Position numbers and translations under genes: made by a program
Shown here: piece after piece, positions 59,204-60,037 of the stretch
Position numbering within the stretch: position 1 is the stretch's first letter
How the letters are laid out: each line of letters opens with the position of its first letter
Notes under the pieces: model-generated
What the model was told of the DNA's origin: nothing
Databases searched by the model: none
What the model saw: only the letters and a program-made list of their open reading frames with translations
Assembly (NCBI GenBank): GCA_035945995.1
Contig: DASYZR010000044.1
Coordinates: 58,266 to 122,265 of the forward strand
Direction of reading: 5' to 3'
From: a bacterium
Lineage (GTDB): Bacteria; Sysuimicrobiota; Sysuimicrobiia; Sysuimicrobiales; Segetimicrobiaceae
Length of the DNA stretch: 64,000 bases

Positions 59204-59446
59204 TCATGTCCCGGGCAGGCCCAACAACGCCGCCAGCCGCCTGCGGTCGAACCCGACCACGACCTCGCCGTCGATGACCGTCACCGGCGTGCTCGCGACG
59301 CCCAGATGCTCGAGCTCCTCCATCGCCGCCGGATCCTCGGCGATATTTCTCGCCTGGAACGGTATCCCGTGTTGGGTGAGGAACTCCTCGACCCTGCGAC
59401 AGAAGATTCAACCCGGCTGGTTGAAGACCGTGACCGACCTGGCCAT
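59204..59446 (-). CDS. glutaredoxin-family protein with UGA at the first active-site Cys (candidate selenoprotein)
   Basis: ATG 59446, 8 nt after GGAGG. The 80-codon frame reads MARSVTVFNQPG, TGA (59408-59410), IFCRRVEEFLTQHGIPF, then EDPAAMEELEHLGV, ASTPVTVIDGEVVVGFDRRR and LAALLGLPGT. That is a complete NrdH/glutaredoxin-like fold, with the TPVTV cis-Pro loop and GF motif, whose CxxC is UGA-x-x-Cys. The UGA stands exactly where the nucleophilic Cys belongs. A SECIS-like hairpin follows. Decoding as selenocysteine needs SelA/B/C/D elsewhere; a Cys-to-stop mutation is the alternative. Confidence 0.65.
59374..59394 (-). promoter_or_regulatory. SECIS-like hairpin downstream of the glutaredoxin UGA
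   Basis: The RNA forms GGGU, bulged C, GAGG, loop AGUU, CCUC, ACCC. It begins 13 nt after the UGA and the apical loop begins 22 nt after it, with G at the second loop position. The layout parallels the E. coli fdhF SECIS minihelix (outer stem, one bulged nucleotide, short upper stem, G/U-containing loop), although the bulge is C rather than U. Confidence 0.5.
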
Positions 59447-59527
59447 CGTGCATGCCTCCATTCGCAGCTGATCTCGATCACGCGAACCCTCAACTATGAC
59501 ACCCTGATCGCCGCAGCGTTCCTCGCC

Positions 59528-60037
59528 TTATCCCTGACGGCCTCCCCGCCGACGGATGGGGCGCGCGGCAGGCCTGACGAGACCGACACGGTCGTAGTAG
59601 CGGAGTGTTTTGGGCTCGATCGCAGCGCGCGCGCCGAGGCGCCCTATGGTTGCCTCGGTAACGGGATCTCGTGAGGTGACGTCGGCCGTCTTGCCGAGGA
59701 TACCTGGGATGCAAAGACTATCCCACGCGCACCACGCGTAGAGGGTTTGGCCATCCACCCGGAGGTGGTGGGGCGGCATCTCTGCAAACGTGAGCCCGCC
59801 GAAGCCGGTGACCGCGCCGCCGTTGTCGTAAAACACCGCGCAGGCCGACAAGGCGCTGCTGACTGCCTCGGGCCGTAGGTTAAGCAGCGTCGCCAGGCGC
59901 GCAACGGACACCGGCTCGCCCTTGGCCAACTCTCGGTAGAGACTCACCGCGACACGACGGCCGATGGGGTCGAAGCGGGGGACGGCGGCAGCAATTTTCT
60001 CCGCGAGTTGCGTCACGTTCGTTGCTGCTTGCGGCAT
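59528..60037 (-). CDS. truncated organomercurial lyase (MerB-like) fused to a MerR helix-turn-helix fragment
   Basis: 169 aa from ATG 60037 (GAGGAG 8 nt upstream). Residues 1-130 match MerB: ELAKGEPVSVARLATLL, FGGLTFAEMPPH and LYAWCAWDSLCIP, containing the catalytic Cys and Asp of the Cys-x-x-Asp motif. The region with the third catalytic residue (Cys159 in characterised MerB) is missing. The frame instead passes into TIGRLGARAAIEPKTLRYYD and RVGLVRPAAR, a MerR-family DNA-recognition helix, then ends. It therefore looks like a recombination chimera, probably without lyase activity. Confidence 0.75.
   Translation of the reverse strand: MPQAATNVTQLAEKIAAAVPRFDPIGRRVAVSLYRELAKGEPVSVARLATLLNLRPEAVSSALSACAVFYDNGGAVTGFGGLTFAEMPPHHLRVDGQTLYAWCAWDSLCIPGILGKTADVTSRDPVTEATIGRLGARAAIEPKTLRYYDRVGLVRPAARPIRRRGGRQG

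Follow-up and report, generated by a model that had tools for sequence, protein, structure and literature searches.

Glutaredoxin gene and its product

The window, a stretch of 64,000 nucleotides from a bacterial genome of 4.15 Mb and 98.8% completeness (G000), contains on its reverse strand a short glutaredoxin gene preceded by the remnant of a MerB-family gene, and the features of both are collected in Table 1. Translation of positions 59446-59204 (minus strand) gives the product MARSVTVFNQPG-U-IFCRR...TPVTVIDGEVVVGFDRRRLAALLGLPGT-stop, in which U stands for the only internal TGA of the frame, located at the codon of the catalytic cysteine. A preliminary description made from the letters alone had claimed an 80-codon glutaredoxin frame broken by a single TGA, placed at the first Cys of a CxxC motif, with the resolving Cys and the TPVTV cis-Pro loop intact and a good ribosome-binding site, and each of these points is borne out by the translation and by the GGAGG ahead of the ATG.

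Table 1. Positions of the glutaredoxin gene, its predicted recoding signals and the neighbouring mercury-related frames in the window
Feature	Position	Strand	Details and basis
Predicted Sec-glutaredoxin gene	59204..59446	(-)	ATG at 59446, terminal TGA 59206-59204, 80 codons; translation
In-frame TGA, codon 13, predicted Sec at the catalytic position of UxxC	59408..59410	(-)	translation and relatives
Resolving Cys codon, residue 16	59399..59401	(-)	sequence and alignment
bSECIS-like hairpin	59374..59394	(-)	8 bp, one bulged C, loop AGUU (59385-59382); folding and model scan
Ribosome-binding site (Shine-Dalgarno) GGAGG	59455..59459	(-)	8 nt before ATG
MerR-type N-terminal helix-turn-helix fragment, in-frame fusion to MerB remnant	59558..59647	(-)	PF00376
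MerB-family (organomercurial lyase) gene, 5' part	59656..60037	(-)	PF03243, 46.6 bits vs 27

With Cys put for the TGA, the protein matches the Pfam glutaredoxin family PF00462 at 55.8 bits against a cut-off of 22.9, and Cys16 is nearly invariant in an alignment of 32 glutaredoxin rows. The AlphaFold2 model obtained with this alignment as input is confident (pLDDT 91.8) and places residue 13 just ahead of the first helix, and its top PDB match in Foldseek is 7c10, the structure of cGrx1 (TM 0.88/0.93, 44% identity). None of the 16 NCBIfam families matching the protein reaches its curated cut-off, including the UXX-star families NF041212 (52.2 of 66 bits), NF041211 (37.3 of 100), NF041114 (26.5 of 72) and NF047338 (24.1 of 97), as well as NrdH (TIGR02194, 56.7 of 85.75) and YruB (TIGR02196, 69.6 of 88.55).

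Conservation of the TGA codon

Both other genomes of the genus (G001 and G002) carry the glutaredoxin with the identical TGA, at 82% identity to the protein in the window. Comparison of the window gene with these two relatives gives dN of 0.10-0.11 against dS of 0.49-0.71, with dN/dS (NG86) of 0.22 for G001 and 0.15 for G002, and the degraded homologous frames that had been named in advance as evidence against the reading did not occur. In a search of 43 genomes of the phylum, 20 were found to contain a glutaredoxin match, and TGA occupies the site in 23 of the 25 matches (five of the 23 being distant or partial) and in all 18 matches of at least 49% identity. A scan of named genomes yielded at least 39 loci, of which those listed divide into 24 that have TGA at the site and 15 that have Cys. 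The alignment of homologues that the preliminary description had proposed has TGA at column 13 in 26 of 32 rows and Cys in six, and the residues upstream of the TGA are conserved. Since the TGA is common to independent genomes, a base-call error is argued against.

Locus counts given below refer to the 61 distinct loci listed, 16 of which have the Cys form; they leave out L055, L116, the second copy in L064, and L060, which lies on the same contig as L100 (genome G038). L060, which comes from Candidatus Segetimicrobium genomatis (order Sysuimicrobiales), overlaps L100; G038 belongs to the same order as the window, whose organism is on this basis inferred to fall within Sysuimicrobiales. A tree of the glutaredoxins, built on 77 columns without L052, L056, L060 and L114, has few supported forks; TGA and mercury labels are clustered in it, and the number of origins is not settled by it. 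For its labels, L067 and L069 were called mercury by their downstream genes, with no MerB in the DNA fetched for them, and L070 was not called mercury despite a MerB gene 2.9 kb from its Sec-glutaredoxin.

Public protein sets contain 115 homologues, of which 110 start after residue 13, and none of these 110 could reach it. The five that cover the position have Cys in three distant cases, Arg in P0003, a close metagenomic relative, and Trp in P0077; the Arg and the Trp at the Sec position are possible losses or errors. Because 110 of the 115 matches begin after the TGA, the UxxC glutaredoxin family is routinely mis-annotated in these sets: gene callers start after the UGA, and the active site of these 110 proteins is missing from public databases.

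bSECIS-like hairpin

A hairpin of 21 nt with a bulged nucleotide and an AGUU loop had been described 13 nt after the UGA, and all of these details were confirmed, the structure being GGGU-(C)-GAGG-AGUU-CCUC-ACCC with the loop beginning 22 nt after the UGA. The bSECIS model, as given in the available part of a review, demands a 3-9 nt loop that has G among its first two nucleotides, located 16-37 nt from the UGA, and an MFE of -7.5 or lower (PMC13188914). The SECIS check recommended for this region placed the hairpin within this published bacterial model, with its loop at 22 nt and -12.9 kcal/mol in an extended form. Being unexceptional when taken alone (z of -1.26 in single-sequence folding, p of 0.08 against synonymous recoding), the hairpin draws its weight from conservation among relatives.

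Among the 61 distinct loci listed, a G-[G/U]-loop hairpin 20-24 nt after the site is present in 34 of 45 TGA genes vs 1 of 16 Cys genes, and the loose bSECIS model is satisfied by 35 of 45 vs 8 of 16. Compared with synonymous recodings, the mean z of the same loci is -1.82 for the TGA genes (n=45) and -0.20 for the Cys genes (n=16), a difference with a Mann-Whitney p of 9e-6, these rows being related and the p-values hence too small. The typical hairpin is absent in the scan from 11 of the 45 TGA genes listed, among them those of the mercury operons L059, L063, L064 and L072. When pairs were counted with the register fixed to that of the window hairpin, the value was 67.8%, vs 34-67% in slid registers; this support is weak because many of the relatives form their pairs in a different register.

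Selenocysteine machinery of the genome

The selA (551 bits), selB (352 bits) and selC genes of G000 all lie on contig C155 and score over their cut-offs. The tRNA-Sec gene (selC) matches RF01852 with 70.8 bits against a cut-off of 47 and is called tRNA-Sec with anticodon TCA (UCA) by ARAGORN; two weaker RF01852 matches in the genome, with 56.6 and 47.6 bits, are also over the cut-off. The selD gene (386 bits, likewise over its cut-off; C5:47185-48105, L030) was identified with one in-frame TGA read through, which would fit a SelD that itself contains Sec. All four genes that the preliminary description had wished to see sought were thus found, and the absence of selB or selC, which would have told against it, did not occur. 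In 14 control genomes, the cut-offs were passed by selC in five, selB in two, selA in one and selD in two. Across 41 genomes, selB co-occurred with the glutaredoxin without discrimination (12 of 15 full-length carriers vs 19 of 26 others).

The Sec genes, the conservation of the TGA and the non-degraded homologous frames support the proposed selenocysteine glutaredoxin, and Sec is very probably inserted at the UGA of codon 13. Reassignment of TGA throughout the genome was considered separately and rejected, given that TGA ends the glutaredoxin frame and two of six neighbouring frames and that the Sec genes are present.

Association with MerB-family genes

A fused MerB/MerR-like frame of 169 residues (59528-60037) lies 81 nt upstream of the glutaredoxin gene in the same direction. 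Its MerB part matches the intact G001 MerB at 74% on the nucleotide level and keeps the residues equivalent to Cys96 and Asp99 (WCAWD), and the Cys159 region is gone together with the C-terminal part, these catalytic residues having been placed by aligning the G001 MerB to 3f2g. The MerR-like fragment reaches 25.1 bits for PF00376, under the cut-off of 28.2. In G001, the gene order is that of the window and MerB is intact, with three catalytic residues aligning with 3f2g. In G002 and on contig C116 of G000, the glutaredoxin follows an ArsR-type regulator and the MerB gene faces away. The C116 gene (C116:67810-67953, L115:9811-9954) is a second copy of the Sec-glutaredoxin gene, with 88% identity across residues 1-48; it keeps the TGA, lacks its 3' part and ends before a tRNA gene, and its neighbours include an ArsR-type regulator and a MerB gene that is intact.

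The suggestion that the gene belongs to a mercury-type cluster stands in part: a MerB-family frame is present and the pairing recurs elsewhere, but no functional mer locus was found in the window, where MerB is truncated and without its third catalytic Cys, and no MerA of G000 is over the cut-off (best 338.7 of 454.45 bits). The mercury role is therefore argued from comparison and chemistry.

Among the 61 distinct loci listed, MerB lies within 0.5 kb of the glutaredoxin at 12 of 45 TGA loci vs none of 16 Cys loci. All four copies found in the genus have a MerB-family gene within this distance, and these pairings are read as one or two ancestral loci, not four independent events. A further eight loci with MerB within 0.5 kb on the same strand are labelled Methylomirabilota/NC10 in seven cases and Nitrospirae in one. 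MerB matches occur in 10 of 41 genomes of the phylum, in which positions within 1 kb of MerB make up about 3e-4, the chance per locus. The order is clearest at L062 and L068, where an ArsR-type gene is followed by MerB, the Sec-glutaredoxin, a small LysW-like frame with TGA and finally MerF; at L059 and L063, MerF stands ahead of the glutaredoxin, and some loci are without one of these parts or run into a contig end. Both MerF proteins tested are over the cut-off of 50 bits (81.8 and 63), as is the one ArsR-family protein tested over its own (L097, 82 of 55).

In nine loci, a further TGA-containing gene adjoins the Sec-glutaredoxin. LysW-like zinc-ribbon frames were observed downstream of it in L059, L062, L063, L064, L065, L067, L068, L069 and L072, with one or two in-frame TGA at the ribbon cysteines (CxG[U/C]...CPNUAG). 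The two frames tested match LysW only, with 49.9 and 39.6 bits where the cut-off is 75, so that the group is perhaps an unnamed selenoprotein family. A search of 41 genomes of the window's phylum, run without a positive control, returned none of them.

Two other frames in these loci were noted. The MerB-family frames L059:4140-4757 and L063:4140-4748, on two contigs of one Methylomirabilota MAG, have by eye an in-frame TGA at the apparent third catalytic cysteine (AHU-P-xTNFFC). At L070, a MerA/lipoamide-dehydrogenase-like flavoprotein (L070:5007-6591; 313.7 bits against the MerA cut-off of 454.45) begins 20 nt downstream of the Sec-glutaredoxin and is a candidate reductase partner.

Proposed function and alternative explanations

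The interpretation that is somewhat favoured is that the window encodes a cGrx1-type glutaredoxin whose UGA13 is read as Sec by means of the selA, selB, selC and selD of the same genome, and which likely serves a MerB mercury locus. For a role of the Sec-glutaredoxin tied to mercury loci as such, the genomic evidence leaves the chances about even, and a hand-off of Hg(II) from MerB to the Sec-glutaredoxin, suggested by analogy, is put forward tentatively. In such a scheme, SelB bound to tRNA-Sec would recognise the hairpin and insert Sec13, and the Sec13/Cys16 pair would play the part of the N-terminal Cys pair of MerA (NmerA): it would accept Hg(II) from the active site of MerB, hand the metal onward and be regenerated by a thioredoxin-reductase-like flavoprotein. 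The role of Hg(II) acceptor would suit a Sec/Cys pair in which one of the two residues is ionised at neutral pH. In G000, the glutaredoxin and MerB would act in trans, as the only intact glutaredoxin lies in the window beside a broken MerB and the only intact MerB lies on C116 beside a truncated glutaredoxin. A classical hand-off to MerA is spoken against by the lack of a MerA over the cut-off in this genome.

A wider reading is possible, on the doubtful side, in which these loci would represent a selenium-based mercury detoxification: the Sec-glutaredoxin would replace the N-terminal Cys pair of MerA, accompanied by the LysW-like Sec ribbon (in Methylomirabilota) and by Sec at the third catalytic cysteine of MerB (in one genome), and the window would belong to a reduced branch.

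The strongest rival holds that the protein is a Sec-glutaredoxin of general thiol-redox function, and that the MerB neighbourhood reflects shared stress regulation or transfer and not direct mercury handling; with a likelihood somewhat short of even, it remains strong because most of the homologues examined are not near MerB. Thus, 33 of the 45 TGA loci listed have no MerB within 0.5 kb (some of their contigs end close by), on account of which the Sec-glutaredoxin probably has other jobs elsewhere, and in other families of the phylum a different conserved gene, which we take to encode a CoA-binding protein, follows it at about 20 nt or less in eight distinct loci (L099, L100, L101, L103 and L105-L108). 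A precedent also exists in cGrx1, proposed in the accessible portion of its description as the reductant of the selenoprotein MsrA, methionine sulfoxide reductase A (PMC7642778). A general function accounts less readily for the presence of MerB at all four copies found in the genus and at eight further loci, several of which also have ArsR-type and MerF genes.

It is unlikely that the window gene is only carried along, readable yet unused, in a mercury locus that is decaying, as might be thought from the truncated adjoining MerB with its MerR-like fusion and from the sister copy on C116 without its 3' part; the gene is of full length with a good ribosome-binding site, its dN/dS against the two same-genus copies is low (0.15 and 0.22), and the genome has an intact MerB at another locus. 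That the TGA is a true stop, created by sequencing error or mutation in a gene that is broken or starts after it, is very improbable: public annotation does begin after the TGA in nearly all matches and the read-through product is a prediction from sequence, but the same codon is TGA in many independent genomes, the residues before it are conserved, the Sec genes are present and the hairpin is enriched in TGA genes.

The affinity of selenols for mercury far exceeds that of thiols, which is the usual explanation of the poisoning of selenoenzymes by mercury. The Sec-redoxin and MerB form a conserved pair, which suggests that this affinity has become a tool in some bacteria and leads to a prediction about the cycling of mercury in soil and groundwater that can be tested.

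Comparison with known systems

The nearest solved fold and sequence match is cGrx1, to which the window protein aligns without gaps (1-77 to 1-77). According to the available sections of its structural description, cGrx1 of Clostridium oremlandii is a native selenoprotein with catalytic residue 13 and resolving Cys16, the same positions as in the window protein, and was crystallised in its Cys13 form (7c10) (PMC7642778). It differs in having UPxC and a proposed role as MsrA reductant, whereas the window protein has UIFC, stands beside MerB-family genes and comes from a different phylum. Families of UxxC glutaredoxin selenoproteins are also listed for the Sargasso Sea and GOS metagenomes, with a SECIS drawn for the Sargasso one, and the portions of the two papers available mention no mercury neighbourhood for them (PMC1088965, PMC2398784). 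Given these cases, a selenocysteine glutaredoxin is not in itself new, and the window gene is a further case of the cGrx1 type.

The UXX-star proteins (NF041212, families 1-3) are related small glutaredoxin-like (seleno)proteins, for which metal binding is suggested in the part of the review at hand (PMC13188914); the window protein differs in falling under every cut-off, with 52.2 of 66 at best. The same excerpt describes the SAO system, composed of SaoL, a MerB-like lyase, and SaoT, a thioredoxin-like UxxC selenoprotein, so that, in outline, both systems join a MerB-like lyase to a small redoxin-type selenoprotein with UxxC (PMC13188914). The two systems differ in their components: no match to SaoT (NF040730) was obtained at E 1e-3 among 11 glutaredoxin proteins tested, the MerB neighbours tested score at most 87.1 for SaoL, whose cut-off is 140, and ABC-transport partners are listed for SAO in that excerpt, whereas the Sec-glutaredoxin loci have MerF and ArsR.

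With the mer operon (MerB, MerA, NmerA), the related loci share a MerB-family enzyme, MerF and an ArsR-type regulator. External thiols are needed to remove Hg(II) from MerB, a step performed in vivo by the N-terminal Cys pair of MerA according to the pages available (PMC4525700), and a Synechocystis MerA-like enzyme dependent on a glutaredoxin is cited in the accessible text of PMC8261052. The difference is that a Sec-glutaredoxin would replace the NmerA Cys pair, and that G000 is without a MerA over the cut-off. A Sec-glutaredoxin beside MerB was not found in the literature searched, which consisted of partial texts and excluded the primary SAO papers. Judged from the gene neighbourhoods, the company of MerB-family genes appears to be the less ordinary feature of this Sec-glutaredoxin.
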